Assembly (NCBI GenBank): GCA_026413765.1
Contig: JAOAKI010000003.1
Coordinates: 1 to 62,138, forward strand
Length of the DNA: 62,138 nucleotides
From: Microcaldota archaeon
GTDB taxonomy: Archaea; Micrarchaeota; Micrarchaeia; Anstonellales; Anstonellaceae
Reading direction: 5' to 3'
Shown here: piece by piece, positions 11,694 through 55,867 of the stretch
How positions within the stretch are numbered: position 1 is the stretch's first letter
How the letters are laid out: each line of letters opens with the position of its first letter
Notes under the pieces: model-generated
Told to the model about the DNA's origin: nothing
Database searches by the model: none
Seen by the model: only the letters and a program-made list of their open reading frames with translations
Translations under genes and position numbers: made by a program

Positions 11694-11992
11694 GCGGATG
11701 TAGTATAACCTGGTTAGTATCTTGGCCTTCCAAGCCAAAGATCCGGGTTCAAAACCCTAGGGGGCACCAAACTGGCACAAGCTTCCCCCTGAGGGCTCAC
11801 CCCCGAATGAAAAACAAATGTTTGGGGGTGGGGGCACCAAACTGGCACAAGCTTCCCCCTGAGGGCTCACCCCCGAATGAAAAACAAATGTTTGGGGGTG
11901 GAAAGCTTGGGGCTTGCAAGCGCGTTGTTTTGATTGCGCATCCAAAGATGACGCATTTGTGCTTGAAAGGCATGAAAATCCCGGCATCCGCA
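11694..11992 (+). tRNA. tRNA-Gly(UCC) with a 225-nt T-loop intron
   Basis: The acceptor GCGGATG pairs with CATCCGC before discriminator A. The anticodon arm is TTGGC-CTTCCAA-GCCAA, giving UCC. The T-arm is split: CCGGGTTCAAA ends at 11753 and TCCCGG resumes at 11979, so the intron is 11754-11978, between positions 59 and 60. TTCA before the left cut pairs with TGAA before the right cut, with three-base bulges AA^A and AA^T, a relaxed BHB. Splicing restores TTCAAAT. The intron holds two identical 70-bp repeats. A T-run directly after the gene is a likely terminator, and CTTTATTG at about 11669 a likely TATA. Confidence 0.9.
11761..11900 (+). repeat. Two perfect 70-bp tandem repeats inside the tRNA-Gly(UCC) intron
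   Basis: The 70-bp unit beginning GGGGCACCAA occurs at 11761 and again at 11831 with no differences. Each unit can form two hairpins: AGGGGG with CCCCCT (loop about 20 nt) and CACCCCC with GGGGGTG (loop about 19 nt). The core CCCCCTGAGGGCTCACCCCC is shared by every copy of the Gly type. The array is preceded by the boundary CCCTAGG at 11755-11761. The unit is not coding, although a long open frame runs through it. Confidence 0.95.
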
Positions 11993-12015
11993 CTTTTTTT
12001 GAGGCAAAACTCAAG

Positions 12016-12030
12016 CAATATAAATGATAA
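12016..12030 (+). promoter_or_regulatory. TATA box of the one-carbon operon
   Basis: CAATATAAATGATAA lies about 45 bp before the purB ATG at 12071, downstream of the tRNA terminator. It should drive purB and the tightly spaced genes after it. Confidence 0.5.
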
Positions 12031-12070
12031 GCTCGTTTTTTGGAGCGTTGGGAGGACATCAGGTGATGCG

Positions 12071-13390
12071 ATGAGTGTTTTGCCACTTGACGGAAGATAT
12101 AAGACTGAAATGAACCAGTTTTTTGAGGAAGAATATAAGCTGAAAACATGGCTTGAAGTAGAAGTTGCCCTTGCGAAAGCCCATGCGAAACTCAAAAACA
12201 TTCCGCAAGAGGCAGTCTTGGAAATAGAAGAGGCGTCAAAAGAAGTGACTTTGCAGCGCGTTTCTGAAATTGAAAGCGAGATACACCATGACTTGATGGC
12301 GATGGTGCGCGCGCTTTCTGAAAAATGTAAAAGATACGGCGGGTATGTGCATTTGGGTGCAACATCGTACGACATCGAGGACACTGCCTATGCGCTTGTT
12401 TTGCTGCGGGCAATAGGGATGCTGGAAAACAGGATGAAGCAGACGTGCAGCATCCTTAAAGACCATGCCTTGAAAACGAAAAATCTCGTCTGTGTGGCAA
12501 GAACCCATGGGCAGCATGCCGTCCCCACGACGTATGGGATGAAATTTGCTTTGTGGTATGCTGAGATGAAAAGGCACCTTGAGCGGCTGCAGAGGGCAAA
12601 GAAAGTAATTGGAGTCGGGAAGATGTCTGGGGCTGCCGGCACAATGGCAACATTTGAAGGCAAGGGATTTGAGATTCAAAGGCTGGTGATGGAAGAGCTT
12701 GGCTTGGAAGCAGACAGCATAACAAACCAAGTTGTGCAAAGAGACAGGCATGCAGAGGTTATTTTTGTACTTGCGTTGATTGCAGCCACGCTGGAAAAGA
12801 TTGCAAAAGAGATAAGGAATTTGCAAAGAACCGAGATAATGGAGATAAGCGAGCCGTTCTCCAAGAAGCAGGTTGGCTCATCCACCATGCCTCAAAAAAG
12901 AAATCCTCACAAATCTGAAAGGATATGCTCGCTTGCAAGAATAGTGAGGGCAAACGTTCCAGTCGCACTCGAAAACATCCCGCTTGAGCATGAAAGAGAC
13001 CTGACCAATTCTGCAAATGAGAGGTTCATATTCGCAGAAAGCTTCATAGTCACTGACTATATGCTTTCGCAGATGAACACGATCCTTTCAGGCCTGCAGT
13101 TTTATCCGGAAAACATAAAGAGAAACCTCGAAATCACTGGCGGGGCAATAATGGCAGAAAGGGTGATGATAGAGCTGACGAAGAGAGGCATGGGACGGCA
13201 GGAGGCGCACGAGCTGATACGCAAAAGCTCTCTTGAGGCATTTGAGCAGAAGAAGACTCTTGCGGAGGTGCTGCTGAAAAAAGAGGAAGTGGCAAAGCTG
13301 ATGAATGAAAGCGAGCTTTCAGCATTGTTTGACCCCAAGGAATACATTGGGGAAGCTGAAAGAATAGTTGAAAGGGTTCTGAAAGAGTAG
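12071..13390 (+). CDS. purB: Adenylosuccinate lyase
   Basis: Protein of 439 aa; it splits SAICAR and adenylosuccinate, releasing fumarate, in purine synthesis. The superfamily signature [14 protein letters not shown] is present, as are [13 protein letters not shown] and [13 protein letters not shown]. The ATG at 12071 follows AGGTGATGCG, a good ribosome binding site. An open frame continuing 138 codons upstream passes through the tRNA-Gly gene and its repeats and is not coding. First gene of a five-gene operon; glyA starts 7 bp later. Confidence 0.93.
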
Positions 13391-13397
13391 TGGTGCA

Positions 13398-14645
13398 ATG
13401 CAGGAATTTTTGAAACAGGTGGATCCCGAGATATATGGATTGGCAAGGCAGGAGCTTGAAAGGCAGAGAAACGGCCTCGAGCTGATACCTTCAGAAAATT
13501 TTGCTTCTCTTGCAGTCATGCAAGCACAGGGCTCAGTCCTTACAAACAAATACTCGGAAGGCTACCCAGGAAAGAGATATTATGGGGGGAATCAGTTTAT
13601 AGACGAATGCGAAACGCTTGCCATAAACAGGGCAAAAAAAATATTCCATGCAGATCATGCAAACGTACAGCCGCATTCAGGCTCGCAGGCAAATATGGCT
13701 GCCTATTTTGCCCTGCTAAACCCAGGGGACAAAATAATGGGGCTGAACCTGTCGCATGGAGGGCACCTGACCCATGGAAGCCAAGTGAATTTTTCTGGAA
13801 AGCTGTACAAAGTTGTTCCATACAATGTGCATCCGAAAACGCATCTGCTTGATTTTGACGAGATAGAAAAATTGGCAGTGCAGGAAAAACCAAGGCTTAT
13901 TGTTGCAGGATTTACTGCCTATCCTCGCCAGGTCGATTTCAAGAGGTTTGCAGAGATTGCTCAAAAGGTGGGTGCATATTTTATGGTAGATATGGCGCAC
14001 ATTGCCGGCTTGATTGCTGGTGGGGCGCATCCACAGCCATTCCCCTACGCAGATGTGGTGACATCCACGACTCACAAGACACTGCGCGGACCAAGAGGCG
14101 CATTCATACTTTGTAAAAAGGAGTTCCAAGAAAAAATAGACAAGGCGGTGTTTCCTGGCATCCAAGGTGGGCCATTTGACCATGTGATAGCTGCCAAAGC
14201 AGTCTGCTTCAAAGAGGCCATGCAGCCGGAATTTGCGCAATATGCAAAGAAAGTAGTTGAAAATGCGAAAGCGCTTGCAGAATCCCTGGTCGAAGAAGGC
14301 ATGACTCTTGTGTCAGGAGGCACTGACACACACCTGATCGTGGTCGATTTGACAAGCTTGAAGATAACTGGTAAAGAGGCGCAAAACGCTCTAGATGAGG
14401 TGGGAATAACAGTGAACAAGAATACGATACCGTATGACCCACTGTCTCCGTTTGTCACTTCTGGCATCAGGCTTGGGACGCCAGCATTGACAACGAGAGG
14501 GATGGGAAAAAGCCAGATGAAAGAGATAGGAAAGATGATAAGTGAAATATGCAGATCGCCAAACGACAGCGCAGTGAAAGAGAGAGTAAGAAAGCAGGTC
14601 GCTGAAATGACAAGGCAGTTTCCGCTTTATCCGGAACTTGGCTGA
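13398..14645 (+). CDS. glyA: Serine hydroxymethyltransferase
   Basis: Protein of 415 aa, of bacterial-type length. The PLP lysine lies in [12 protein letters not shown], with other signatures [22 protein letters not shown] and [10 protein letters not shown]. It converts serine and a folate carrier to glycine and the methylene-folate. In this operon the next genes oxidise and use that one-carbon unit, so tetrahydrofolate or a close analogue is the probable carrier. Confidence 0.93.
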
Positions 14646-14660
14646 CGCGCGGGGGATGAG

Positions 14661-15524
14661 ATGGCCGCGGTTGTGGTTGATGGAAATAAGCTGGCCCAAG
14701 AGGTGCTTTCAGAAATTTCAGCAAAATTGGAAGGCGCCTCTCCGAAGCCCACGCTTGCATTTGTCCTGGTCGGAAAAAACCATGCATCTGAAATTTATGC
14801 AAAGAAAAAAGCAGAAGACTGCAGAAAGGTTGGGATAAACTCTCTTTTGGTGAGGCTGCCTGCTTCTTTTACCCAGGCGCAGATAATAAATAAAATCAGG
14901 GAGCTTAACGCAGACCAAAATGTAGACGGGATAATAGTCCAGCTTCCGCTTCCGCCAAAAATAGATGAGAACAAAATAATAGAGGAGATTTCGCCGCATA
15001 AAGATGTAGACGGGTTCCACCCTTACAATTTTGGCAACACTGCGCTGGGGGTTGGAAAGATAGCGCCTTGCACTGCGGCAGGAGTAGTCTACTTGCTGAA
15101 AAAAAGCGGCATAAAACTAGAGGGAAAGCACGCAGTCGTGGTAGGAAGGAGCAGGATTGTCGGAAAGCCGCTTTCGCTGATGCTCCTGAATGAAAATTGC
15201 ACGGTGACTGTTTGCCACAGCAAGACAAAAGGCCTTCCAAAATACACAAGGCAGGCAGATATTGTATGCATGGCTGTCGGAAAACCGAGGATGCTGAAGG
15301 CAAGCATGATAAAGAAGGGCGCAATAGTGATTGATATAGGGATAAATCGTGAAGGGGAAAAGCTGGTGGGCGATGTGGATTTTGGGCCTGTATCAAGAAA
15401 AGCGTCATTGATTACCCCTGTCCCAGGCGGCGTAGGACCGATGACAAGGGCAATGCTCATCAAAAACACATTCGAATGCTATCGGATGAGGCGGATGGAA
15501 AATGACAGCAAAAAACTATCATGA
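14661..15524 (+). CDS. folD: Methylene-THF dehydrogenase / methenyl-THF cyclohydrolase FolD
   Basis: Protein of 287 aa, the usual FolD length. YAKKKAEDCRKVGI carries the catalytic Lys region, IIVQLPLP and HKDVDGFHPYN line the folate site, VVGRSRIVGKP starts the Rossmann NADP site, and PVPGGVGPMTRAML closes the protein. It oxidises methylene-THF to formyl-THF. It overlaps folC by 23 bp, so the two are translationally coupled. Confidence 0.93.
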   Translation: MAAVVVDGNKLAQEVLSEISAKLEGASPKPTLAFVLVGKNHASEIYAKKKAEDCRKVGINSLLVRLPASFTQAQIINKIRELNADQNVDGIIVQLPLPPKIDENKIIEEISPHKDVDGFHPYNFGNTALGVGKIAPCTAAGVVYLLKKSGIKLEGKHAVVVGRSRIVGKPLSLMLLNENCTVTVCHSKTKGLPKYTRQADIVCMAVGKPRMLKASMIKKGAIVIDIGINREGEKLVGDVDFGPVSRKASLITPVPGGVGPMTRAMLIKNTFECYRMRRMENDSKKLS

Positions 15525-16821
15525 AATTTTAGACAAGATATATTCATTGGACAAATACGGAAGCAAACTTGGCCTTGAAAGAATAGAGAGGATACTTTTT
15601 GCTGCTGGCAACCCGCAAAACAGCTATCGATGCATAATAGTTGGCGGAAGCAATGGAAAGGGGTCGACTGTCGAGATGATCGCATCCATACTGATTGCCG
15701 CTGGACTCAAGACAGGCTCCTATTTTTCTCCTCAAGTAGTGGAATTCCGGGAAAGGATAAGGATAAACGGCAAATATGTAAGCAAAAGAGATGTCATATG
15801 GGCATACAAAAAAGTAAGCTCGATATGCGAAAAAGAAGGAATAGAGGCAACGTTTTTCGAAGTGGTCACTGCGATGGCATTTTTGATTTTTCAGAGGCAT
15901 AAGGTGGAATACGCGGTGCTTGAGGTTGGATTGGGCGGCAGGTTGGACGCTACGAACGCCGCTGAGCCTGAAATTGCCGCTATATCCTCTCTTTCTTTAG
16001 AGCACACGCAGATTTTGGGACCGACAATAAGGCATATTGCTCATGAAAAATGCGGAATTGCAAGGAAGAACGTCAAGCTCGTCTGCGGCATGATGAATGA
16101 AGAGGCAAAACAGGCAATCTATGAAGAATGCAGGGTGATAGGTGCGCAGCCGCTGATGGTTGAAGATGAAGTCAAGATATTTGACATACGCCAGGAAAAG
16201 ATGAAGTATGCATTTAGGGCAAAATATGATGGCGAAGAATATGACATAAGGCTTGGAGCGCCAGGAAGGTTCCAGATGGGCAATGCCTGTGTCGCACTAG
16301 TTGTGTGCAAAAACCTGGGAATCAAAAAAGAAGCAATACAAGAAGGCCTTTTGGAGGCAAGGCCAAGATACCGGCTCGAGCAAGTTGGCAAAAACCCGAC
16401 TGTAATAGCAGACAGCTGCCACAATCCAGAGGCTGCTTTTGCTCTTTCTGCAGAGGTTGAAAGGCTGCCGGCAAGAAAGAAAATCTTGGTGTTTTCCGCA
16501 ATGAAAGACAAGGATTTTGAGCAGATGCTGAAGATATTCCGGGCGCATTTTGATGTGATCGTGCTGTGCAAAGTCTCACTTGAGAGGGCAGCCCCAATCA
16601 AAGATTTGCAGAATGCCGCCAAAAAAGCAGGGATTACGCTTTTGGACTCGCCGTCAAAAATGGGCACAGAAGGGACGTTTGCCATAACTGTGGAAGATCC
16701 GCATGAGGCAGTAAAAGCCGCAAAAAAGCTTGCAGGAAAATCTGGGTATGTTTTTATAGCAGGCTCGATATATTTGCTTGCCCAGCTTTATTCAAAAGAC
16801 AAAATAAGGATTGCCCAGTAG
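15502..16821 (+). CDS. folC: Folylpolyglutamate / dihydrofolate synthase FolC
   Basis: Protein of 439 aa of the Mur ligase superfamily. The ATP loop is GGSNGKGST near residue 50, VLEVGLGGRLDATN supplies the Mg-binding Glu, and the carbamylated-Lys/His region is SLEHTQILG. It adds glutamates to folate. Its place in the operon supports a polyglutamylated tetrahydrofolate as cofactor here rather than methanopterin. The start inside folD is chosen because the domain begins immediately (NYHEILDKIYSLDKYG). Confidence 0.9.
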   Translation: MTAKNYHEILDKIYSLDKYGSKLGLERIERILFAAGNPQNSYRCIIVGGSNGKGSTVEMIASILIAAGLKTGSYFSPQVVEFRERIRINGKYVSKRDVIWAYKKVSSICEKEGIEATFFEVVTAMAFLIFQRHKVEYAVLEVGLGGRLDATNAAEPEIAAISSLSLEHTQILGPTIRHIAHEKCGIARKNVKLVCGMMNEEAKQAIYEECRVIGAQPLMVEDEVKIFDIRQEKMKYAFRAKYDGEEYDIRLGAPGRFQMGNACVALVVCKNLGIKKEAIQEGLLEARPRYRLEQVGKNPTVIADSCHNPEAAFALSAEVERLPARKKILVFSAMKDKDFEQMLKIFRAHFDVIVLCKVSLERAAPIKDLQNAAKKAGITLLDSPSKMGTEGTFAITVEDPHEAVKAAKKLAGKSGYVFIAGSIYLLAQLYSKDKIRIAQ

Positions 16822-16828
16822 TGGTTAG

Positions 16829-17980
16829 ATGAAAGACGCAATAAGAAAAGAGATGATCAAAAAAAGAGATGAGCATTACAAGCAAAAGGGCCATCGCCTC
16901 TGCCTTGCAATAATGGACCGCTTCTTGAGATTGCCTGAATTTGAAAAAGCAGGCTGCGTGTTGCTTTACGCCTCGAAAGGGAGCGAGGTCCACACAAGCG
17001 ATATAATTCGGTCTGCGCTATCTTTAGGAAAGAAGGTTGTTTTGCCTGTGACAAATTTGGAAAAGCATGAGCTGGAGCTTTACCAGATTGGCTCGATAGA
17101 AGAGCTTGTGCCTGGCGCATTTGGGATTCCCGAGCCGCCAAGAGCGGAAAGAAAAAGAGTGAGCCCGCAGGAAATAGAGCTTGCAGTAATCCCTGGAATA
17201 AGCTTTGACATGCGCGGCTACAGGATTGGCTATGGGAAAGGATATTACGACAAGCTTCTGCCGCAAATCAAAGGGAAAAAGGTCGGCCTTGCGTATGAAA
17301 TCCAGATCATGGACAAAATCCCAAACGAGGCGCATGACATAGCGGTGGACATAATTGTCACCGAAGAGAGAGTCATAAGATGCAACAAAGATTTTCGCGT
17401 GGTTGTCCTGGCTTCAGGAAGGGGAAGCGATTTCCAGTCAATTATAGATGGGATAAAAAGCGGAAAAGTTCATGCCAGTGTGGTTGGACTAATCACAGAC
17501 AATCCAAACGCATACGCGATAAAGAGGGCGCAAGAAGCAGGCATACCTTATTTTGTCATCCCGCACAGCAGCCGCGAGGAACTCGACAGAGGGATTTTGG
17601 AAAAGCTTGACGAGCTTTCACCAGATTTAGTAGTGCTTGCAGGCTATATGAAAATAATAAAAAGCAAAGAATTGCTCTCCAAATACGCCGGAAGGATAAT
17701 AAACATCCATCCCTCGCTTTTGCCAAAATACCCCGGCATGAATGCGCAGAAAGCTGCATTCGAGGCAGGCGAGAAAATATCCGGCTACACCATTCATTTT
17801 GTTGATGAGACTTTGGATGGAGGCAAAATAATTTACCAAGAAAAAGTAGACATATCAGACTGCAAGAGTGCAGAAGAGGTTGCGGCAAAGATATTGGAAA
17901 GGGAGCACGTTGGGCTTCCAATGATAGTAGAAAAGTTTGCAAGAGGAGAGATAAAGCCTGAAGACATGTTCAGCCGATAA
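16829..17980 (+). CDS. Fusion: 5-formyl-THF cyclo-ligase + PurN GAR transformylase
   Basis: Protein of 383 aa with two complete enzymes. Residues about 1-185 are a 5-formyltetrahydrofolate cyclo-ligase (IRKEMIKKRDEH start, GYGKGYYDK near 135-143). Residues about 188-383 are phosphoribosylglycinamide formyltransferase: VLASGRGSDFQSII for phosphate, then INIHPSLLP with catalytic Asn and His, and the Asp in HFVDETLDGG. The first half makes methenyl-THF from 5-formyl-THF; the second uses formyl-THF for purine synthesis. I know these as separate proteins, so the fusion is unusual. There is no stop or frameshift between the halves. Confidence 0.9.
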   Translation: MKDAIRKEMIKKRDEHYKQKGHRLCLAIMDRFLRLPEFEKAGCVLLYASKGSEVHTSDIIRSALSLGKKVVLPVTNLEKHELELYQIGSIEELVPGAFGIPEPPRAERKRVSPQEIELAVIPGISFDMRGYRIGYGKGYYDKLLPQIKGKKVGLAYEIQIMDKIPNEAHDIAVDIIVTEERVIRCNKDFRVVVLASGRGSDFQSIIDGIKSGKVHASVVGLITDNPNAYAIKRAQEAGIPYFVIPHSSREELDRGILEKLDELSPDLVVLAGYMKIIKSKELLSKYAGRIINIHPSLLPKYPGMNAQKAAFEAGEKISGYTIHFVDETLDGGKIIYQEKVDISDCKSAEEVAAKILEREHVGLPMIVEKFARGEIKPEDMFSR

Positions 17981-17984
17981 AGAG

Positions 17985-17997
17985 GATTTATAATTTT
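17985..17997 (+). promoter_or_regulatory. TATA box of the Era-like GTPase gene
   Basis: GATTTATAATTTT follows the PurN-fusion stop directly and lies about 22-33 bp before the ATG at 18018, giving a short leader with the site GGGAGAGGC before the start. Confidence 0.5.
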
Positions 17998-18017
17998 TAG
18001 GCGCAAAAGGGAGAGGC

Positions 18018-18638
18018 ATGATATCCAAAATATTGCAGTGGCTCAAAAAAATATTCAAAGGCAGAAAAAGCATCACGTTAGGGATATATGGCAGCCCAAA
18101 TGTAGGCAAGACCACGCTTGCAAACAGAATATGTGTCGAGCTTGCAGGCGAACCTATCGGGACAATAAGCCCTATACCTCATGAAACAAGGTCGGTGCAG
18201 CAAAAAAGCAAAGTGATTCTCAAAGTTGATGGCTTCTGCCTGACGATGGACCTTCTTGACATGCCAGGAATTGCTGTAAAAGTAGATTACCGGGATTTTC
18301 TTGAATATGGTTTGACAAAAGAGGAAGCGCAAAAAAGGGCGCGGGAAGCAACAAGGGGGGTAGTCGAGGCGATAAGGCATCTTGACAAGGTGGATGCTGC
18401 TCTATTGATGGTCGACTCCACAGAAGACCCATACACGCAAGTCAATATCACTATGCTGGGCAACATGGAGGCAAGAAAAATACCCATCATCATAGTAGCC
18501 AACAAAATCGACTTGCCCAGCGCAAATATCGCAAGGGTCAAGGAAGCATTCAGCGGCTATGATGTTGTTGAAATTTCAGCAAAAACCGGCGAGAACATGA
18601 AGGCGCTATATCGCGAAATCGTAAACAAGCTGGCTTGA
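18018..18638 (+). CDS. Era-like small GTPase
   Basis: Protein of 206 aa with all G motifs: GSPNVGKTT (G1), the switch threonine region HETRSVQ, DMPG (G3), NKID (G4) and SAKTG (G5). It is a short TRAFAC GTPase of the Era-like branch with no KH domain, so it is not Era itself. The zinc-ribbon gene follows 7 bp later, a pairing that recurs in archaea and has been proposed as a functional unit (ArvA/ArvC-type, from memory). Role unproven. Confidence 0.78.
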   Translation: MISKILQWLKKIFKGRKSITLGIYGSPNVGKTTLANRICVELAGEPIGTISPIPHETRSVQQKSKVILKVDGFCLTMDLLDMPGIAVKVDYRDFLEYGLTKEEAQKRAREATRGVVEAIRHLDKVDAALLMVDSTEDPYTQVNITMLGNMEARKIPIIIVANKIDLPSANIARVKEAFSGYDVVEISAKTGENMKALYREIVNKLA

Positions 18639-18645
18639 AGGTGTC

Positions 18646-18978
18646 TTGATGCACAAGTGCTTGCGTTGTGGAAAGAGAATAGACAGCCTAGAGCAAATCA
18701 AAACGGGCTGCGAATGCGGCTCAAAAATTTTTGTATTCAACAAGGAAGCAGTGGCTGTGCGGCAAAAGGAAACGGAAGGCGACGGCAGGCTTCCTGATTC
18801 CTATTTTGCGGTGATATCTTTCCGTGAAGATGATGTGGAGAACATAAAGATAGTAGAGGAAGGAATCTTTTCGATAGATTTGGATGGCCTTTCCAGGAAT
18901 CCAGTTGTGCTAAAAGACCAGGATGGCGTATACTATATCAAGATTGAGCCAAAAGGCGACAATGGAAGAAAATGCTAG
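18646..18978 (+). CDS. Zinc-ribbon protein (OapC/ArvC-like)
   Basis: Protein of 110 aa. CLRCGK and GCECG near the start form a treble-clef or ribbon zinc site. The C-terminal half (SFREDDVENIKIVEEGIFSI then VLKDQDGVYYIK) resembles the archaeal DUF2072 pattern. It is coupled to the Era-like GTPase upstream and overlaps archease by 4 bp tail to tail. Probable GTPase partner; function not established. Confidence 0.6.
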   Translation: MMHKCLRCGKRIDSLEQIKTGCECGSKIFVFNKEAVAVRQKETEGDGRLPDSYFAVISFREDDVENIKIVEEGIFSIDLDGLSRNPVVLKDQDGVYYIKIEPKGDNGRKC

Positions 18979-19376: not shown

Positions 19377-19397
19377 GATAGAAAATATGCAAAAAGA

Positions 19398-25002: not shown

Positions 25003-26796
25003 ATGCAGGAAGTCAAAAAAGAGGTACTGGCTATAACGAAATATTTCCTTTCGTTGCCGCATCCTGCCAAGACCACAGTTGCAATCTTCATAGTCGCGTT
25101 CTTGTTTGGAGTGCTTCTGAGTGCCGCAAAAAGCACAGATGATTGGGTAAGGCTATTCATAGGGGGCATCGAAGGCGTCATTTTTTTGGCATTTCCTTCC
25201 ATATTTTCATCGGTTGCGCTTTACATTCTGAGAAGAAAGGCATTTTTCAGAAGGGCAGTATTTCTTGGGCTGCTTACTTGCATTTGCTATGGGCTTTTTT
25301 ATCTTCTTTCAGTATGGCTTGTGAGATTTTGGCAGCCTGCTGAGAATTTGGTCTATATTGGATTTGGCCTTGCGTTTGGCATGTGGTATTTCTTTCTCAA
25401 GCTTGCCTTTGGGTTCCGCAAAAGCGCATTTTTCCTTGCAACGCTGCAGCTTGCAATTTTTGCCGCCTTCCATCTTGCAGGCGGAATTCTCCAAAAGGAA
25501 GCCGACTTGGTGAATTTGCTTGCGAAACTTTACCTTGCGGTGTTCGTATTTCTTGCCGCAATCTACCTAATGTTCTACTTTCTTTCTTTGCCGATGAAAA
25601 AAAACCTCAAGATATCATCGATGGACGCGTTGGGCATGTTCTTGTCGCAGTGGCTATATGGCGAAAAAGAGCTTGAGGAAGCTTTTGAGGAGATAGGCGA
25701 GGAAGTTGAGACAGTCGTCTGGGTTGCGACTTTTTCTGGCAAAAAAAACAATGCAATATTTGTCGTGCCTTATGTTCATTTCGGCCCTTTTGGGAATTTG
25801 GGCGGAAGCGAGTTCACATTCAGGATAGCAGAAGGGTTTTCGGGTTTGTATGACAAAAAAGGGGCAATGCCCGAGGTATTTGTGTTCCACGGGACTGTCA
25901 CGCATGATTTTAATCCAGTATCCTCAAAAGAGCTGGAAAAGGTGATGTCGGCTTGCAAAAATGCTTTGGGAAGGATTGTAAAGCGCCCAGCCAAAATGGC
26001 GTATTTGGAGTGCAAGGTTGGAAGCACGAACGCAAAGTCTTTCTTTTTCAATGACTCTGCTTTCCTTTCTTTTTCAAGGGCTCCGCAGACAACTGAGGAC
26101 ATAAATTTTGGCCTTGGGCTTGCAGTCATGGAGATAGCAAAAAGAAGCTGCAAAACTGCGGCAGTGGTAGATGAGCACAATGCTGAGACTGGAGAAATAA
26201 GCTCGGTTGAAGTTGGAAACCCCATAGGGTTCGAGATTCTGGATGCCGCAAGGCAGATTTTCTCAAAGAAAAAGCGGTTAGACAGGTTTTTGTTTGCATG
26301 CGCCAGCAGGCGCATAGAGGCCGAAAACATCGGCAAGAACGGCATAAAGCTTGCCTTGTTCAAGAAAAATGCCACTCTTTACAGCATCGTTTTGATTGAC
26401 GCAAACGGCATTGTGCCGCAGTTCAGGGAAGAGATTCTTGACCTTCTTGTGGCGCTTGGGAAAGAAAAAGGCATGCGATGTGTTGGGGAAGTCATGACTA
26501 CCGACACCCATCAGCTGAATACCATCCAAGGAGTGATAAATCCGGTTGGAACGCAAAAGCGCGGAGACATCATGATGCTCATCCGGCAGCTTTTTTACGA
26601 GGCTGCAGCCAAGCTTGAAGAAGTAAAATTTGGGGCGGCAGAGGAAAGATTCAAAATAAATGTCTTTGGAAGCGGGCAGGCTGTGGAAATTGCTGCAACA
26701 ATAAATGGAGTGGTTGCGATTCTCCGCCTTGTCTTGCCTGCAATTCTAGTCGCAGCCACCGCAATACTTGTTTGGGCCCTTGGGAAGATTTCCTAA
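25003..26796 (+). CDS. DUF2070 membrane protein
   Basis: Protein of 597 aa. About seven hydrophobic helices fill the first 215 residues; the rest is a soluble domain. The conserved archaeal DUF2070 stretch VPYVHFGPFGNLGGSEF and FHGTVTHDFNPVSS are clear, as is DEHNAETGEISS; these His/Asp-rich motifs look catalytic or metal-binding. A C-terminal hydrophobic helix pair returns to the membrane. The family is widespread in archaea and uncharacterised. Confidence 0.8.
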   Translation: MQEVKKEVLAITKYFLSLPHPAKTTVAIFIVAFLFGVLLSAAKSTDDWVRLFIGGIEGVIFLAFPSIFSSVALYILRRKAFFRRAVFLGLLTCICYGLFYLLSVWLVRFWQPAENLVYIGFGLAFGMWYFFLKLAFGFRKSAFFLATLQLAIFAAFHLAGGILQKEADLVNLLAKLYLAVFVFLAAIYLMFYFLSLPMKKNLKISSMDALGMFLSQWLYGEKELEEAFEEIGEEVETVVWVATFSGKKNNAIFVVPYVHFGPFGNLGGSEFTFRIAEGFSGLYDKKGAMPEVFVFHGTVTHDFNPVSSKELEKVMSACKNALGRIVKRPAKMAYLECKVGSTNAKSFFFNDSAFLSFSRAPQTTEDINFGLGLAVMEIAKRSCKTAAVVDEHNAETGEISSVEVGNPIGFEILDAARQIFSKKKRLDRFLFACASRRIEAENIGKNGIKLALFKKNATLYSIVLIDANGIVPQFREEILDLLVALGKEKGMRCVGEVMTTDTHQLNTIQGVINPVGTQKRGDIMMLIRQLFYEAAAKLEEVKFGAAEERFKINVFGSGQAVEIAATINGVVAILRLVLPAILVAATAILVWALGKIS

Positions 26797-26803
26797 GCCA
26801 GGC

Positions 26804-28231
26804 TCAGGCAACTTCGCTTCCGCTTCTTTCTTTTTTGAGCTCGAAATCTGAAAGCGATGCCTTATACCAAGAGCCGTATTTTTCGGATGCCTGCTCCTCG
26901 ATTGGTCTGCTGTGCTGGATTGCAAATCGGACATCTTCAGCAGTAATTAAGTTCCTGCCTTCCGATATTGCCAAATCTCCTGCCATCTTGATCGTGCCCG
27001 CAAGCATCCTCAACCTAAGCGAAAGCCCATTGACACCGTCTATTTCTTTTGCCCTTCTTTTTGCAAGAGCTATCATTTCTTCTATTGCGCCTGCGTCAGC
27101 ATGCGGAATCCTTCCATCCCTTACGATCTCTTGCGCCAAAAATTGCACGAGCTTGAGCCGATTTTCTTCGCTGTCCTCCATATAAGAGTTCATCAGCACT
27201 TCATAGCCATTTCCAAGTATCCTGCTGCGCAGCGGCGGGAGTATATGCGAGACATCGTTGAAATTGACTGCCGCAACCAAAATGAAATCAGCTGGAACGC
27301 CGTCCACCCTTACTGATGATCCTGTGGAGGATTGGTTTCTCCCGCTTATTGGATATTTCTTTTCTTGCATTGCGGTAAGCAGGAAGCGCTGCAGCCGCCC
27401 CAGCGAAGAAAGCTCATCTATGAACAATACTCCTTCGTGCGCCTCATGCACCGCACCAGGCACCACGCGCGTGTAAGGAAGCGAGCCTATTGTGGGGTGA
27501 GAGCCATAGGGGTCGTGCCTAACATCGCCCAGCAGCTCTGTCTCGGAAGCTCCAGTGGCCTGCACGAAATTCGGGCGGTTGAGCGGCAGCAAAACTTTGA
27601 ATTGTGTCTTTCGCTCAAGCTCTGCAAGCTTGGAGAGCTCTCTTTGGGTGAGAAGCGCAATAGCGTTGCCCCTCCTTTCAAAAACTATCAGCTCCTCTTT
27701 GCCATTGACTATGCGAGTAGTGTGCACGCGGTCTTCGCGCTCGAAAGCGCCCGGTCCAACTATCAAGTCATCAAAAGGGCCTTTGATCTTTCTATATTTG
27801 TCTGCGCCACAGAAAAAGCAAACCGAAGCATCCGGGCTCGAGATCCTTGCGCACCTGCGGCAGCGAAAGCCAAGCTTTTCAGCAACAAACGATGGGACTT
27901 GGGTCGGGTCAAGAATTTGGCTGGCTGGCTGCGTCTGCTGCCTTGCTGATTTTTTTGAAGAAGGATAAGTTCGAACCTCAATTAGAGGCCTTTCGGGCTT
28001 TTCAGGGTTGTGCAAGACAAGGACTTCCTGGGTCGGCTTTGGAAGGGTGGACGCAATTGCTTGCGCAAGCATCGATTTGCCTGTGCCTGGAGGGCCGACC
28101 AAAAGAAGGTGTCTCCTTTGCTTGCCTACGATTCGCCCTATTTTCACTGCTGCATCTTGACCAATGATTTGCAGCATTGGGTCTTGAGGGATTTTGACTT
28201 CTGCGGTTGATGAAATGTCTGAAAGTCGCAT
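26804..28231 (-). CDS. LonB-like AAA+ ATPase with zinc ribbon and no protease domain
   Basis: Protein of 475 aa. Walker A is GPPGTGKS (46-53), Walker B GVLFIDEL (267-274), and a LonB-like block GDVRHDPYGS precedes VVPGAVHEAHEGVLFIDE. A four-Cys zinc ribbon (Cys 124, 127, 138, 141) is inserted in the AAA+ region, where archaeal LonB has its membrane insert. The C-terminal Ser-Lys protease domain of Lon is absent: the chain ends with the helical lid. So it is an unfoldase-type ATPase rather than a protease. It is the last gene of the pilin-like operon, 30 bp after its neighbour. Confidence 0.75.
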   Translation of the reverse strand: MRLSDISSTAEVKIPQDPMLQIIGQDAAVKIGRIVGKQRRHLLLVGPPGTGKSMLAQAIASTLPKPTQEVLVLHNPEKPERPLIEVRTYPSSKKSARQQTQPASQILDPTQVPSFVAEKLGFRCRRCARISSPDASVCFFCGADKYRKIKGPFDDLIVGPGAFEREDRVHTTRIVNGKEELIVFERRGNAIALLTQRELSKLAELERKTQFKVLLPLNRPNFVQATGASETELLGDVRHDPYGSHPTIGSLPYTRVVPGAVHEAHEGVLFIDELSSLGRLQRFLLTAMQEKKYPISGRNQSSTGSSVRVDGVPADFILVAAVNFNDVSHILPPLRSRILGNGYEVLMNSYMEDSEENRLKLVQFLAQEIVRDGRIPHADAGAIEEMIALAKRRAKEIDGVNGLSLRLRMLAGTIKMAGDLAISEGRNLITAEDVRFAIQHSRPIEEQASEKYGSWYKASLSDFELKKERSGSEVA

Positions 28232-28261
28232 GCTAATAAAATGGGGCTGAAATATAAAATA

Positions 28262-28759
28262 CTAATTCCTCCACAAATACACTTTCATCCGTACTGGGCG
28301 GCCATTGAGGATTGCCCCACGATAAACTATTGCCACCTCTGTCGCATTCTGCGGGACTGCTCTGCCGATAGAATAAGAACTGCCTGTTCGGTTGTCAGTC
28401 TGCTCAACCACTATATAGTAATTGGCAGGCGCTCGCATTATTCTCCCCACTGCTGAATAATTAGCTGCTGCAAGCGCACTCATCCTTGAGATTTTGTTTT
28501 CATCAAGCTGGCCGCTAAAGTGGTCTTTTGCAAAGCCAAATTGCCTAATTTGGTTCAAGTCAAAATACAATGACCAGTTTGAAGGAGAGCCAGGAGAACG
28601 CAGCGCCTCCGCAATCCTTAGTGCGTCCGCATAAAGCGGGCTGTTGCTAGACTCGGCAATTGATTGCGAGCTTAGCCAGAATGAAGCAAGCGTCGCCATT
28701 GCAATTATCATTATAACGGACGCGACAATTGCGTCAAAAGAAAAATATTGCGCTTTCAC
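28262..28759 (-). CDS. Pilin-like membrane-anchored protein (FSFDA type)
   Basis: Protein of 165 aa. A short positive start is followed by the hydrophobic helix of a pilin-like signal: QYFSFDAIVASVIMIIAMA. Here FSFDA replaces the class III QxxxE pattern, with Asp where pilins carry Glu5. The remainder is an extracytoplasmic domain with several N-x-S/T sites. The upstream gene stops 13 bp earlier. Probable minor pilin or pseudopilin; exact role unknown. Confidence 0.6.
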   Translation of the reverse strand: MKAQYFSFDAIVASVIMIIAMATLASFWLSSQSIAESSNSPLYADALRIAEALRSPGSPSNWSLYFDLNQIRQFGFAKDHFSGQLDENKISRMSALAAANYSAVGRIMRAPANYYIVVEQTDNRTGSSYSIGRAVPQNATEVAIVYRGAILNGRPVRMKVYLWRN

Positions 28760-28772
28760 AACGATTCCTCCG

Positions 28773-29291
28773 TCAACAACTATTAGGCGGTGTAAACTTT
28801 ATGGTGCTTTTGCCTGCAACCAATTCGTGCTTTATGCATACAGAAGAGCCATAGGAAGGATTGATGAAGATTTTTTCCTCACGTGGAAAAATGCGTATGA
28901 ATTGGCCCGAAGTCAGCGCGTCGTAAGAGGTGGTGACAGTTGCTGCCGCAAAAACTCCTGGCCCCAATGGGCTTGCCCACTCCACATAAACGAAGCCTGT
29001 CTCAGTCTGTGAAGGGGCAGAAGAGAAGCTGATGGAGATATTGTAAGGCTTGCCGAGTATGTCTTTTGGAAGCTGAACCCTTTGGCTGAAACCAGGCCCT
29101 GCCACAAAGGCAGTATAGATTGCATCCGCAAAGCTGAACGCGATTTCCTGCGCATAAGCATTCTCAGCGCGATAGAGGCCTTGAGCCTGCTGCTGGAAGA
29201 AAATTCCAACTGTAGCAACAAAGAGAAGCAAGAAAAACGAGGCATAAGCGATAAGCTCAATTGCCGCCTGCGCTTTAATCGTAGCTGACAT
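28773..29291 (-). CDS. Class III signal peptide protein (pilin-like)
   Basis: Protein of 172 aa from MSATIKAQAAIELIAYASFF. The QAAIEL sequence before the hydrophobic stretch matches the archaeal class III prepilin signal (cleavage expected before Q, Glu at +5). It overlaps the previous gene by 17 bp, which argues for translational coupling. A longer start four codons upstream is possible. The soluble part has two cysteines that may form a disulfide. Confidence 0.65.
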   Translation of the reverse strand: MSATIKAQAAIELIAYASFFLLLFVATVGIFFQQQAQGLYRAENAYAQEIAFSFADAIYTAFVAGPGFSQRVQLPKDILGKPYNISISFSSAPSQTETGFVYVEWASPLGPGVFAAATVTTSYDALTSGQFIRIFPREEKIFINPSYGSSVCIKHELVAGKSTIKFTPPNSC

Positions 29292-29685
29292 TGACAAAAT
29301 CACCCATATTCACCAATTTTATCTTTTGCAATCCGCCTGTTCGTTTGCCAGATAGGTTGCCGGAAACATTTGCAAATGTTGACGCTACAATGTCCATCGT
29401 CCGCCCATCCGCCTCTATCCTCAATACAACAAGGCCATTTTCCAGCTTTGCATTCGTTATGCCATCAGGATAATTGACAACAATTGTTTTCCTTGCACCC
29501 TCGCCTTGCAAAAAAATCTCACCTGCCTCATCTGCTATGGTGCTGGCCGCAACCTGGGCAGCGCTGATGCTGTTTTTTCCCCGCTCTGAATGCGAAAACG
29601 AAAGGAAAAGGAGAGCAAGTGGCACAATGAAAGCCAACGCAAAGCCTATCATCACTAAATATTCGCTTGCTGCCTGCCCTTTCAT
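29275..29685 (-). CDS. Class III signal peptide protein (pilin-like)
   Basis: Protein of 136 aa. MKGQAASEYLVMIGFALAF is a textbook archaeal type IV pilin signal (KGQAASEY), with cleavage expected before Q. A start at 29700 would add five residues. The rest is a beta-rich domain without known family. It is a good candidate for the major pilin of this operon because the signal is the most canonical of the five. Confidence 0.7.
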   Translation of the reverse strand: MKGQAASEYLVMIGFALAFIVPLALLFLSFSHSERGKNSISAAQVAASTIADEAGEIFLQGEGARKTIVVNYPDGITNAKLENGLVVLRIEADGRTMDIVASTFANVSGNLSGKRTGGLQKIKLVNMGDFVNVSYD

Positions 29686-29709
29686 GCATCCAGATTGCAT
29701 AACACCAGC

Positions 29710-31344
29710 CTAACAAGGCGCCGAGCTAATGCCTGGAAAGTCGCAGGCAATCTCTCTTGCGCCATACCTTTGGATTGCTTCTCTGCTTAGCCTGAAATGT
29801 CCAACGCTTTCGTTCAGCGGCGCCATGCCAGAGCACATCTCTTTGTCTTTGCAGCCCATCATCCCTTTTATCTTCAAAACCAAAGATGGTTGCGATGCTT
29901 GGTAAAACTCCCAGTCCAGCCTGGACCGCCCATTTTGCAGCTTGTCGTCTTTCCCACCTGCCCAGGTCCCAACAACGAAAGATTCTATCCCAAGATCATT
30001 GTTGTTGTAATTCTTTCCATTGCTAAGCATTCGCTGGAAGAACGATGGGCCATTTCCTTGCAAGTAAAATCCGCAGATTGCCATGTCCCTCAGCTTGGTG
30101 ATGTCCCATATGCGGTGATATCCTTGCCTCTTTTTGTCCTTGTCGCCAAACTCGTTGTCAATCAGAACGAAAACGTGCTCCCCAACTCCTTCTCGTTTGA
30201 CGATTGGAATGCGGCTGGAATTTGCGCTCCAGCCGCTTCCTGCCACGATGAATGGAACTTCTATCTCATTTTTGTAAATATATGGGGGAATTGGCCGGCA
30301 GGATTGCCCGCCGCTGTTGACTTGCACCCAACGCAGGCAATTGAGGCAATCTGTCTGGTTATATTCTGTGAAATTGCATCCTCCTTCAGTGTAGGTGCGA
30401 GATACAACTCTTGGAGAAGTTGTCAGAATCACAGCCCCGTAGAAGTTGGCGTAATTTGAAATGTTTTCATCGTAGCGGTGCACTAAAATATACTGCTTGA
30501 TCCTGTTGAGCTCCTCACCCTCGAAAATCCCTTGATCAGGGTAATCTGAAGTAATTGGACCAAAAAACCAGCCGCTTCCTTCCAGCCCATTTTCTTCAAC
30601 TAAAACAGGGGAAACATCAGAGGGAGAATTGTAGGAAACGTGCTTCCATATCTGCTTTTGGGCAACCAATGAAGGATCGCGCGCAATTCCTGGTCTTCGA
30701 TTAAGCTCTTCGCGCACAATAAGCGGATCAACAAAGCCGTTTATCGAAAATGAACTGTTTGCTTTGAGCCTTTTTGACTGCTTCATCGTGTTTTCCAGGT
30801 CGGTCAGGTTCATCTCCATCTCGAAAGAAACCCCCACCGTCCATGGATCCTTCTGGAGAAAGACAAAATTCTCCACAGGCCCAAAGCTGACATTCATCCC
30901 GACGATGTTTGCGGCCTGGCGGATTTTTTGCTGCCAGCCAGCTATGGTGTAAGCTTCCTTTTCTTCAGCAGAATAGCTTATGGGCAACGGAGAAGAGCTG
31001 TTCCCATAAAGCATCAATTCGTAAGCCAGCTTCTCGACTGCGCCAGTACCTGGGTTGCGAGGGTCAGATGAAGGCGATTCGCTCAGGCCGTTGACCTGTG
31101 TTGCATTTACCATCTTGAATGTCGCAAAAAAAGCGGAAGCATTCGCAAACTGAGAGAGGCTCTTGTCAGAAATCGAAGAAAGCACCATGCGCATCGATTC
31201 TCCTTTAAAACGCATTGAAAGGTGCTGGTCCTTTTGGGCAAATGTTCTTACCCACATTTGGCTAGTAAGAAGCATGAAAGAAAGGAGAATAAGCGCAGTG
31301 ACCGTAAAGAAAAACCCTTTGTTGGGAAGATTGAAATCACGCAT
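29710..31344 (-). CDS. Large membrane-anchored extracellular protein of the pilin-like operon
   Basis: Protein of 544 aa. A single N-terminal hydrophobic helix (KGFFFTVTALILLSFMLLTS) is followed by a long extracytoplasmic part with many N-x-S/T sites and paired cysteines (CNFTEYNQTDCLNCLRW). It resembles large minor pseudopilins in overall layout only. It overlaps the upstream gene by 8 bp. It could be the tip or adhesin component. Confidence 0.5.
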   Translation of the reverse strand: MRDFNLPNKGFFFTVTALILLSFMLLTSQMWVRTFAQKDQHLSMRFKGESMRMVLSSISDKSLSQFANASAFFATFKMVNATQVNGLSESPSSDPRNPGTGAVEKLAYELMLYGNSSSPLPISYSAEEKEAYTIAGWQQKIRQAANIVGMNVSFGPVENFVFLQKDPWTVGVSFEMEMNLTDLENTMKQSKRLKANSSFSINGFVDPLIVREELNRRPGIARDPSLVAQKQIWKHVSYNSPSDVSPVLVEENGLEGSGWFFGPITSDYPDQGIFEGEELNRIKQYILVHRYDENISNYANFYGAVILTTSPRVVSRTYTEGGCNFTEYNQTDCLNCLRWVQVNSGGQSCRPIPPYIYKNEIEVPFIVAGSGWSANSSRIPIVKREGVGEHVFVLIDNEFGDKDKKRQGYHRIWDITKLRDMAICGFYLQGNGPSFFQRMLSNGKNYNNNDLGIESFVVGTWAGGKDDKLQNGRSRLDWEFYQASQPSLVLKIKGMMGCKDKEMCSGMAPLNESVGHFRLSREAIQRYGAREIACDFPGISSAPC

Positions 31345-31972
31345 AGACAGTAAACCTCACGACCGAAATTGAATTTTTCCCTGGCAAGAAATTTGAGATT
31401 GTATTGTTGCAAGGGGTGATGTCGCATTCTGGCGAAGTCCTGCCATAGCCTGTGCATGAAAGGTAACAGAAAGGAGACTGACCAGGGTTTGGAGGTATGA
31501 CATACATTGATCCGAAGGTAGTTGCAGAGGCGGAAATTTTCGTGAATTTTCTTCCGCACCTATTCGAAAGATAGTCGCATCCTCGCACAGCTGCATTTGG
31601 GTTGTTTCCAGAATCATAAAGCATTCTCCAGCTGTTGTCTGCAAAACGGTAGATTTCAAGGCTGTAGCCGAATCCTTGCGGTATGATGGGGCGGTAAGGC
31701 GAAGAACTGTTTTCAGCGCCGCCTGCAATCTTTGCCAGGATTTCGTGCGGATTTGCTCCGTTGAGGATTTGCTCAAGATAAGTTCCTTTCGTCGGGTCAT
31801 CGGTTGTTGAAGAAATCACCATTAGCGTGTCGTATGCAAGCTGGTGGGCCTGCTGCAGTGAATAATAGTAAGGCTTTGGAGTACCTACAGTGAAAGTAAG
31901 AAAAGCCACAGTAAGCATTACGATTGTAAAGGCGACAAACGCATCAACCGAAAAAACGAAGCCTTTGGGCAT
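31337..31972 (-). CDS. Pilin-like membrane-anchored protein (FSVDA type), first operon gene
   Basis: Protein of 211 aa from MPKGFVFSVDAFVAFTIVML. It shares the variant F-S-x-D-A signal with the fifth gene of the operon. A Cys-rich segment (CDYLSNRCGRK, then CYLSCTGYG and CDITPCN) lies in the second half and may form disulfides outside the cell. The ATG at 31972 is preferred over one 15 codons upstream because the signal begins there. It leads a run of five pilin-like genes plus the AAA+ gene with gaps or overlaps under 35 bp. Confidence 0.6.
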   Translation of the reverse strand: MPKGFVFSVDAFVAFTIVMLTVAFLTFTVGTPKPYYYSLQQAHQLAYDTLMVISSTTDDPTKGTYLEQILNGANPHEILAKIAGGAENSSSPYRPIIPQGFGYSLEIYRFADNSWRMLYDSGNNPNAAVRGCDYLSNRCGRKFTKISASATTFGSMYVIPPNPGQSPFCYLSCTGYGRTSPECDITPCNNTISNFLPGKNSISVVRFTVYA

Positions 31973-32115
31973 ATGCGAAATTTCAGAGCAGAATATTAAA
32001 AAGTTGATTATGGGCAAATTTCAGAACACATCTTCTGAATTTCTGATGCTTTTTGCAAAAACGCTAATTTTTTAAACTCCAATAGAGCAAAAGGATTGCT
32101 TCAGGCTTTGCCTGT

Positions 32116-32364
32116 GCGACCGTCGTCTAGCCTGGTTAGGATACGAGATTGCCAATCTCGCGGGCCGGGTTCAAAACCCTAGGGGGCACTAAACTGACAC
32201 AAGCTTCCCCCTGAGGGCTCACCCCCGAATGGAAAACAAATGTTTGGGGGTGGGGGCAAGGGTTGGCGCCAGAATCCGTCAAAAGGCCCACCCTGAATGC
32301 AAAAGCAGATGCTTAGTACATTGTGGATGTTGAAAAAGTATGGGTGAAAATCCCGGCGGTCGCA
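32116..32364 (+). tRNA. tRNA-Gly(GCC) with a 175-nt T-loop intron
   Basis: GCGACCG pairs with CGGTCGC before discriminator A. The anticodon arm is CGAGA-TTGCCAA-TCTCG, giving GCC. The T-arm is CCGGGTTCAAA, intron 32176-32350, TCCCGG. TTCA before the left cut pairs with TGAA before the right cut (GGTGAAAAT), with bulges AA^A and AA^T as in the other Gly genes. The intron contains one 70-bp repeat, then about 100 nt of unique sequence. A T6 run follows the gene. TTTTTTAAAC at about 32067 is the likely TATA. Confidence 0.9.
32183..32252 (+). repeat. One 70-bp repeat unit inside the tRNA-Gly(GCC) intron
   Basis: The unit starts GGGGCACTAAACTGACAC and ends GTTTGGGGGTG, with a few substitutions from the tRNA-Gly(UCC) copies and the same core CCCCCTGAGGGCTCACCCCC and terminal hairpin. 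It is preceded by the boundary CCCTAGG. The following GGGGCAAGG looks like the first bases of a lost second copy. Confidence 0.93.
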
Positions 32365-32368
32365 TTTT

Positions 32369-33367
32369 TTAGCTTGAAAGAAAATAGGCGGAAGAAAAGA
32401 CATCTCCCAGCCCTACTGTCATCTTTGGGTGTTTCACGAAGAGAGGGCGAAAGCAAGAAAGCTCAGAAAGGGTTGCAAAGCGCCCAGTCTTTGCCTTGAA
32501 GCTTGCACATTTTTTTGCAAAAAGAAGCGCTTTCTGGTCAGAGGGAGAAGAAGGCAGAACGAATTGCCGCTTGGGAGAATGAAAAAGGACTTTGCCTGCC
32601 AATCTTGAAATCTCTTCGACCGACAGCGAAAGCTGCTTTGCCTCAACTTCGTTTAAGCCTACGCAATCCACGCAAGGAAAGAGCTTTTTTTCCGCAAAAT
32701 CAATTATCTTGCGATTTGAAAATTCCCCAAGCTCAAGGAAAACTTCGATCTCAGGGTTGTGCTTTTTCCATCTTTTGATTTCAGAAACAAAGGCGGCAAG
32801 CTGCGAAACAGATGAAAGAAGATGGACCCCGCCGACAAAGGCTTTGGGTATGTCCGGAATTATTGGGGTAATGAATTTGCAAAAGCTTCTTTCCAAGCTC
32901 AAAGGCGCAGCATCGAAAGAGGCAATAAAGCGCGTATTTTTCTTTGGGTATTCGAACACAAAGTGTGCCGAAGATTGCCGCTTGAAAGTAAATTGGTCGG
33001 CGGGAAGAAAACCAGAAGAGGAAGCCACAAGAATTTTGCTTGGCTTTTCAAACAGGAGGAAAAAATCACTGCCAAAGTTAGTTGTATGAAGGAAACAGGT
33101 TACACCAAGCAGCGATGCCTGCTGAGCAGCATTTCCTGCTTGCCCTCCTATGGTTTTTTTGTCAAATACAAACAGATTTTGCAGCTTTTTTGCAAGCCGT
33201 CTGCTGATTCTTACTTCTCTTTGAGCGCCTGTTGAAAAACAGTCTTTCATTGCATAAAAGAGGCTTTTTGAGGCGGATTTGACAGTCTCCAGATCGTTTT
33301 TGCTTACTATTTTGATGTAATCCGGATTGCAGTTGAAAGCAAAAATAGCGCTTTTTGGGAGCCGCAC
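32369..33367 (-). CDS. ADP-dependent sugar kinase family protein
   Basis: Protein of 332 aa resembling the archaeal ADP-dependent glucokinase/phosphofructokinase family (ribokinase fold). Evidence: FNCNPDYIK near the start, GGQAGNAAQQASLLG around 75-90 for sugar binding, a GLNEVE motif that contacts magnesium, and VGLGDVFSSAYFL at the C-terminus with the catalytic Asp. It is clearly shorter than the usual 450 or so residues, so parts of the lid or inserts are missing. Substrate undetermined. It lies convergent to the tRNA-Gly(GCC) gene. Confidence 0.7.
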   Translation of the reverse strand: MRLPKSAIFAFNCNPDYIKIVSKNDLETVKSASKSLFYAMKDCFSTGAQREVRISRRLAKKLQNLFVFDKKTIGGQAGNAAQQASLLGVTCFLHTTNFGSDFFLLFEKPSKILVASSSGFLPADQFTFKRQSSAHFVFEYPKKNTRFIASFDAAPLSLERSFCKFITPIIPDIPKAFVGGVHLLSSVSQLAAFVSEIKRWKKHNPEIEVFLELGEFSNRKIIDFAEKKLFPCVDCVGLNEVEAKQLSLSVEEISRLAGKVLFHSPKRQFVLPSSPSDQKALLFAKKCASFKAKTGRFATLSELSCFRPLFVKHPKMTVGLGDVFSSAYFLSS

Positions 33368-33384
33368 AAACTGTTTGCGAATAG

Positions 33385-33396
33385 CTTTAATAAATA
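33385..33396 (+). promoter_or_regulatory. TATA box of tRNA-Gly(CCC)
   Basis: CTTTAATAAATA lies 22-33 bp upstream of the tRNA 5' end at 33418, the spacing expected for an archaeal tRNA promoter. Confidence 0.5.
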
Positions 33397-33417
33397 GATA
33401 ACATACAAATGCATTGT

Positions 33418-33714
33418 GCGGCTGTAGTCTAGCCTGGTAGGATCTGAGCTTCCCATGCCTTTTTAGGCTGGAAAAAGCTCATGGCCCGGGTTCAAAACCC
33501 TAGGGGGCACTAAACTGACACAAGCTTCCCCCTGAGGGCTCACCCCCGAACGAAAAACAAATGTTTGGGGGTGGGGGCACTAAACTGACACAAGCTTCCC
33601 CCTGAGGGCTCACCCCCGAATGGAAAACAAATGTTTGGGGGTGTAAGGCAGGGCAAGGTTTCCTCTGCCAACTAATCATTGAAGCTACATGAATGGAAAA
33701 TCCCGGCAGCCGCA
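33418..33714 (+). tRNA. tRNA-Gly(CCC) with two introns, 20 nt (anticodon loop) and 204 nt (T-loop)
   Basis: GCGGCTG pairs with CAGCCGC before discriminator A. The first intron is 33456-33475 at 37/38: TTCC pairs with GGAA, bulges CA^T and AA^A, inner helix GCC/GGC, a proper BHB. The anticodon is CCC. The second intron is 33497-33700 at 59/60. Here TTCA pairs with TGGA through a G-U pair, keeping the same bulges as the other Gly genes. It contains two 70-bp repeats. A T7 run follows. All three Gly isoacceptors in the window therefore share this T-loop insertion. Confidence 0.9.
33504..33643 (+). repeat. Two 70-bp tandem repeats inside the tRNA-Gly(CCC) intron
   Basis: The copies start at 33504 and 33574. 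They differ from each other at two adjacent positions (GAACGAAAAAC against GAATGGAAAAC) and carry the same hairpins and boundary CCCTAGG as the other Gly introns. The first copy has GAACG, the form seen in the tRNA-Val arrays, which links the two subtypes. Confidence 0.93.
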
Positions 33715-55857: not shown

Positions 55858-55867
55858 TTCCCTAGGG

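Follow-up and report, generated by a model that had tools for sequence, protein, structure and literature searches.

Eukaryotic introners are short mobile elements that can be spliced as introns upon insertion and that are accompanied by target duplication, and miniature inverted-repeat transposable elements (MITEs), repetitive extragenic palindromic (REP) sequences and elements resembling short interspersed nuclear elements (SINEs) are short, non-coding, hairpin-rich and dispersed, often with target duplications as well. For archaea, the passages citing Fujishima et al. 2010 in PMC4090602 and PMC10714607 report intron transposition among the tRNA genes of Thermoproteales, and a review describes the mechanism of tRNA intron transposition as unknown (PMC4090602). 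Gain of a tRNA-Thr intron in Caldiarchaeum has been ascribed to mobile-element integration, with an integrase/plasmid model at position 24/25 (PMC3293823), and for direct repeats close to intron borders a general tabulation exists (PMC11782384). Here we analyze a stretch of 62,138 nucleotides (the window) from a Microcaldota archaeon of the Micrarchaeota; the window is contig C7 of an 840,152-bp genome in 17 contigs, and the whole genome was rebuilt and searched. Each of the three tRNA-Gly genes in the window carries a T-loop intron containing a hairpin element, and we consider it likely that this is a short mobile element with tRNA-biased insertion that has become, or has colonized, bulge-helix-bulge (BHB) introns of functional tRNAs spliced by the endonuclease EndA.

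Like the transposed introns of Thermoproteales, as these are presented in the citing papers, the introns described here would be of the BHB-spliced kind for which the term intron transposition has been used. In that account, however, the intron is the shared unit, whereas here it is the hairpin element that recurs and the remainder of the intron differs; copies of the element also lie behind and outside tRNAs, partly with target duplications. Near-identical whole introns in several tRNA genes, as in the Thermoproteales type, were not found, only the 5′ element part being shared. In the Caldiarchaeum case, too, the origin of an archaeal tRNA intron is traced to a mobile element, but at one locus, whereas the present element of about 60 bp is multicopy, occurs in many tRNAs and resides in a genome where no tyrosine recombinase was found. 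Introners are spliceosomal and lie in protein genes, in contrast to the EndA-type BHB introns in the tRNA genes of this archaeon, which the element may have created. Compared with MITE, REP and SINE-like elements, the hairpin element has no inverted termini of a known transposon and no Y1 transposase or reverse transcriptase in its genome, its duplications vary in length (9–38 nt), and it is tRNA-biased and tolerated as an intron. A search of the open-access literature, with subscription papers and preprints outside its scope, yielded no description of the element or of hairpin-element introns in Micrarchaeota.

The glycine tRNA genes and their introns are arranged as follows.

11694..11753, + strand: tRNA-Gly(UCC) 5′ exon, positions 1–59; ARAGORN finds a full cloverleaf on the spliced sequence
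11754..11978, + strand: T-loop intron of tRNA-Gly(UCC) at 59/60, 225 nt; BHB UUCA:UGAA with bulges AAA/AAU
11755..11901, + strand: two tandem element copies in the UCC intron (CCCTAGGGGG...CCCCCTGAGGGCTCACCCCC...)
11979..11992, + strand: tRNA-Gly(UCC) 3′ exon
32116..32175, + strand: tRNA-Gly(GCC) 5′ exon
32176..32350, + strand: T-loop intron of tRNA-Gly(GCC), 175 nt, with one element copy at 32177–~32256
32351..32364, + strand: tRNA-Gly(GCC) 3′ exon
33418..33496, + strand: tRNA-Gly(CCC) 5′ part, including a canonical intron of about 20 nt at 37/38 (33456–33475)
33497..33700, + strand: T-loop intron of tRNA-Gly(CCC), 204 nt, with two element copies (33498–~33644); BHB helix 3/4 bp
33701..33714, + strand: tRNA-Gly(CCC) 3′ exon

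An earlier note on this window had placed introns of 225, 175 and 204 nt, with two, one and two repeat copies, at 59/60 of the UCC, GCC and CCC genes, respectively, which we could confirm to the base. All three T-loop introns begin after A59, and the mature T-loop reads UUCAAAU. The acceptor stems pair between the separated exons, and ARAGORN returns a complete cloverleaf for every gene after intron removal, the second intron of tRNA-Gly(CCC) being removed as well. A BLAST search with the three mature tRNAs found no further tRNA-Gly gene in the 840,152-bp genome, so these are its sole glycine tRNAs, and the intact copy elsewhere by which the note would have recognized dead genes did not turn up. 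Because the genome holds no other tRNA-Gly, the organism must splice these three to obtain its own glycine tRNAs, and the genes are probably functional and spliced at 59/60. When run on the unspliced window, ARAGORN alone detected a single one of these genes and gave it a false T-arm, whereas Infernal, using the tRNA family model, detected none; standard annotation may therefore list the tRNA-Gly set as missing.

As read from the sequence, the glycine junctions are textbook BHB motifs with 3-nt bulges, each predicted to be cut after the second base of the bulge. The 5′ side reads T-stem CCGGG, UUCA and bulge AAA in succession, and the 3′ side UGAA, bulge AAU and CCCGG. The helix comprises four of four base pairs in the UCC and GCC genes and three of four in CCC. 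Among 23 element-bearing T-loop introns from seven genomes in two families, all four pairs of the UUCA:UGAA helix are present in 18 and three or more in 19, compared with a background of 2.8% and 15%, respectively, at other positions of the same introns. The genome also encodes a two-domain EndA of 401 aa, whose nearest solved relative is the epsilon2 enzyme of ARMAN-2 (PDB 4fz2, E = 1e-130), which is reported to be of broad substrate specificity and versatile on non-canonical substrates (PMC12397907). Hence, the marks of an archaeal EndA-spliced tRNA intron, namely a BHB, a tRNA restored on removal and a matching endonuclease, are found together.

The basic unit of the repeat is a single two-hairpin element of about 50–70 bp. 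Its core, CCCCCTGAGGGCTCACCCCC, occurs 12 times in the window, with 0 occurrences expected from 100 shuffles, and one unit forms the two-hairpin fold with z = -3.0. An alignment of 40 copies from 13 genomes gives a first stem (H1) of 10 bp, the outer pair of which is C-G in 24 copies, A-U in 15 and G-C in one, with no mismatch; the covariation score of H1 exceeds 500 of 500 shuffles, and the stem is followed by YTCACCCCC, the start of the second hairpin. An Rfam scan for known RNAs or ribozymes returned only tRNA above the gathering score. We also rejected a viral origin, as the core with two wobble positions is absent from 2.9 million viral contigs, and two looser viral matches, both in phage DNA, lack the element's second half and are probably fortuitous. 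At L118, L215, L216 and L221 (genomes G002, G012 and G005), a different hairpin element (GCATCGAGC..GCTCGATGTCTGATGCATTTTGC..GCAAAATGC) is nested in the first between TTCA and CCCC, with TCA apparently repeated.

Covariance model searches detected the element in 24 of the 84 genomes of one Micrarchaeota order and in none of 217 phylum genomes outside that order; at a stricter cut-off 22 of 301 phylum genomes match, all in the same order. Where relatives with the repeat are named, they are Candidatus Micrarchaeota assemblies. Removal of duplicate and nested copies left about 88 distinct loci, whose site classes were assigned automatically and corrected by hand (five false T-loop assignments and several missed 3′ flanks). 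About 56 loci are at tRNA genes, which occupy less than 1% of these genomes, and about 32 are elsewhere. T-loop introns account for 24 loci (Gly, Arg, Glu, Pro, Lys, Ser, Leu, Gln and others) and anticodon-loop introns for six, mostly Arg-UCU, and in both kinds of intron the element starts right at the 5′ splice site. Some 22 further loci fall within 0–4 nt of a mature tRNA 3′ end, and four are in the 5′ part of a tRNA, which in three cases is repeated so that the tRNA stays whole. At L066, L106 and L217 (G008, G001 and G009) the element sits in the first 9–14 nt of a tRNA-Ala-like gene, the bases being repeated and the tRNA complete; these are either recurrent insertions or an old shared one. 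At L110 (G008:C105), a tyrosine-recombinase gene comes immediately after a tRNA-Gly(GCC) whose T-loop intron holds the element, as at tRNA integration sites.

The glycine genes are not the only carriers in the genome studied here. Outside the window, it also occupies the tRNA-Arg(CCG) T-loop intron, follows tRNA-Val(CAC), tRNA-Ala(GGC) and tRNA-Leu(CAG), and forms one intergenic array; within the window, two arrays start 2 nt behind tRNA-Val genes.

50963..51365, - strand: array of roughly five element units and further degenerate ones, 2 nt after the discriminator base of tRNA-Val(GAC)
51368..51459, - strand: tRNA-Val(GAC) with an apparent D-loop intron; anticodon read by hand, ARAGORN says Thr or Leu
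55781..55857, + strand: tRNA-Val(UAC) with an apparent D-loop intron
55860..55990, + strand: two element units directly behind tRNA-Val(UAC)

These copies bear on the proposal, made in the earlier note, that the repeat had multiplied at a single intron position in one family of isoacceptors. Its presence inside genuine T-loop introns is supported, but its confinement to one position in one family is contradicted by the Arg(CCG) copy and those behind Val, Ala and Leu genes, and in relatives by copies that occupy anticodon introns, border tRNA 3′ ends or lie away from tRNA genes. The genome scan that had been suggested did reveal more tRNA loci, and the Val arrays had been missed in the same window. 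The apparent D-loop introns of the two Val genes are about 18–20 nt long and form a AAGCCCATTGGCT hairpin; it is apparently because of this intron that ARAGORN miscalls tRNA-Val(GAC). In the Val array at 50963–51140, units decay with distance from the tRNA and one unit restarts with CCCTAGG inside an older one, a pattern that would fit the addition of new copies close to the tRNA or their insertion into existing ones. The tRNA-Arg(CCG) locus appears at two contig ends (C1:137250–137593 and C3:1–420) with different repeat variants and a few flank differences, so that either the repeat varies between strains or the assembly broke within it; contig C1 ends in a Nextera adapter, CTGTCTCTTATACACATCT.

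Several observations suggest that the element moves. For 27 sites outside introns, the sequence following the element was checked against the 5′ flank, with 658 mismatched flank pairings as the null. Eight sites have direct duplications of 9–38 nt (p <= 0.003 at seven of them and 0.015 at the eighth), the second copy always beginning 49–70 bp from the element start. Several duplicated insertions are antisense at the ends of protein genes, the last codons of which are repeated; the targets, named by eye from the sequence, include a glycosyltransferase, a glutaredoxin and a RIO-like kinase. The longest duplication, 38 nt with 35 identical (L192, G034:C11:73983–74024), is inside the end of a glycosyltransferase-like gene. 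Non-tRNA sites have a pyrimidine at position -5 in 25 of 26 cases, and YCNA stands at the junction in nine of the 26 compared with 7% elsewhere. The tRNA sites (TTCAAA, TTCTA and GCCCAT) fit the same weak motif, which may contribute to the tRNA bias.

Comparison of tRNA-Gly genes between species, to which this part of the analysis was confined, revealed both occupied and empty orthologous sites. The Gly(UCC) gene has an element-bearing intron in G000 and G006, and a T-loop intron lacking the element in G002, G007, G008 and G009; in G001 and G003 it is free of any T-loop intron, as is the Gly(CCC) gene in G002, G005, G006 and G012. The loops of the copies are also more alike within a genome than between genomes (identity 0.65 versus 0.38). 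An inverted pair of elements (L198, G018:C35:2760–3569) was considered as a complete transposon and rejected, the enclosed gene looking like a host 2′-5′ RNA ligase/ThpR; the two copies, in opposite orientation, are near the starts of the outer genes.

Intron length is explained mainly by tandem duplication of the element unit. In relatives, element-bearing T-loop introns measure 52–135 nt and consist of the element and a splice arm with little else, whereas only this genome has introns of 175–225 nt, which combine tandem duplication with an unrelated 3′ segment. The earlier note was right to regard these lengths as unusual for the T-loop position, and its tandem 70-bp repeat is accurate for this genome but not in general, since the introns of relatives hold roughly one element. 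Only the 5′ element part is common to the three glycine introns, their 3′ parts being different. The intron is practically identical to the element in tRNA-Glu of G003, tRNA-Pro of G014 and G016, and tRNA-Gln of G034, and these cases suggest that insertion can create an intron.

The explanation that we favor, a mobile hairpin element in tRNA introns, has its basis in structure, distribution, target duplications, BHB motifs and presence or absence between species, all of which are directly observed. The element of about 50–70 bp would insert into short sites led by a pyrimidine (Y at -5) and strongly favor tRNA genes, landing just inside the 5′ splice sites of T-loop and anticodon introns and 0–4 nt behind mature 3′ ends, and insertions outside introns would often leave a direct target duplication. 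A copy in a tRNA loop would survive only if it can be spliced, and would therefore persist either as a BHB intron in its own right or as part of one. Since the element makes up nearly the whole intron in several relatives, its insertion could plausibly generate the intron. In this genome, copies would have been tandemly duplicated and homogenized into long introns, and the epsilon2-type EndA would cut the BHB at 59/60 in the three tRNA-Gly.

It is possible, although we hold it to be less likely than not, that the element is an archaeal counterpart of introners, such that insertion of a hairpin of about 60 bp into a T-loop or anticodon loop makes a BHB intron in one step. The duplicated target would then supply part of the splice helix, with GGTTCAAAT becoming GGTGAAAAT (UUCA:UGAA) after few changes.

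Some findings weigh against the mobile-element explanation or parts of it. Splicing of the glycine tRNAs is a prediction, and the direction of change, with insertion creating an intron rather than colonizing one, is likewise something that we infer. The element in Gly(UCC) may have entered an older intron, as relatives have an element-free intron at the same place. Because the 3′ BHB arm UGAAAAU would hide a target duplication, creation by insertion is no more than plausible in T-loop introns, and possible duplications there, being inseparable from the arm, were left uncounted. Duplications are absent from 19 of the 27 non-tRNA copies and from the 3′-flank copies, and the BHB helix is lacking in four of the 23 introns, in which the 3′ site is uncertain. 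Moreover, this genome yielded no RVT_1, Y1_Tnp, Phage_integrase or Cas1 domain as a candidate mobility enzyme. IS200/IS605 or REP elements were rejected for want of a Y1 transposase, which occurs in six of 20 family genomes without tracking element number, and a SINE-like retroelement for want of a reverse transcriptase, present in five of the 20. A tyrosine recombinase was dismissed as the engine in this genome since no such domain was found there, though some relatives have one, and a casposon or CRISPR-like array was dismissed since there is no Cas1 and the array intervals are near-copies, not unique spacers. The copies in this genome are either no longer moving, duplicating only locally, or mobilized by an unrecognized or host enzyme.

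Alternatively, the intron itself could be mobile, with excised introns moving by reverse splicing or recombination and the other copies arising as by-products. Elements do lie at RNA ends generated by tRNA processing (after position 37, after 59 and after the discriminator base), the usual DNA transposition enzymes were not found in the genome, and tRNA intron transposition has a precedent (Fujishima et al. 2010, as cited in PMC4090602). Yet whole introns did not move, because the 3′ halves of the glycine introns differ although the element is shared; nor does reverse splicing predict that non-tRNA copies start at the same element base, some with target duplications, and we judge this scenario unlikely. 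An equally improbable account, in our estimation, is that the repeat acts in cis, as RNA or DNA, and is under selection for tRNA 3′-end processing, transcription termination or stabilization of the excised intron, instead of being a selfish mobile element. Its strong fold and its conserved, covarying stem would suit such a role, as would the fact that the same tRNAs (Val and Ala) carry it behind them in G000 and G002 despite a changed loop. A mobile element, however, can need a hairpin for its own movement, and the repeat is patchy on orthologous tRNAs, absent from many genomes of the same order and inserted at protein-gene ends with duplicated targets, while copies in introns cannot act as 3′-end signals. 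Dead tRNA genes or an assembly artifact, which a repeat cluster at a contig break and the adapter-terminated contig C1 might evoke, can hardly be entertained when these sole glycine tRNAs have intact exons and a conserved BHB and the same architecture recurs in independent genomes and in a second family.

The origin of archaeal tRNA introns and of their odd positions is an old question on which there is little direct evidence. With a defined element in and outside introns, empty and occupied sites, and duplications, intron gain can be studied as the insertion of a known sequence. In this organism, every tRNA for one amino acid is predicted to depend on non-canonical splicing, and the hairpin element may show how new tRNA introns arise.

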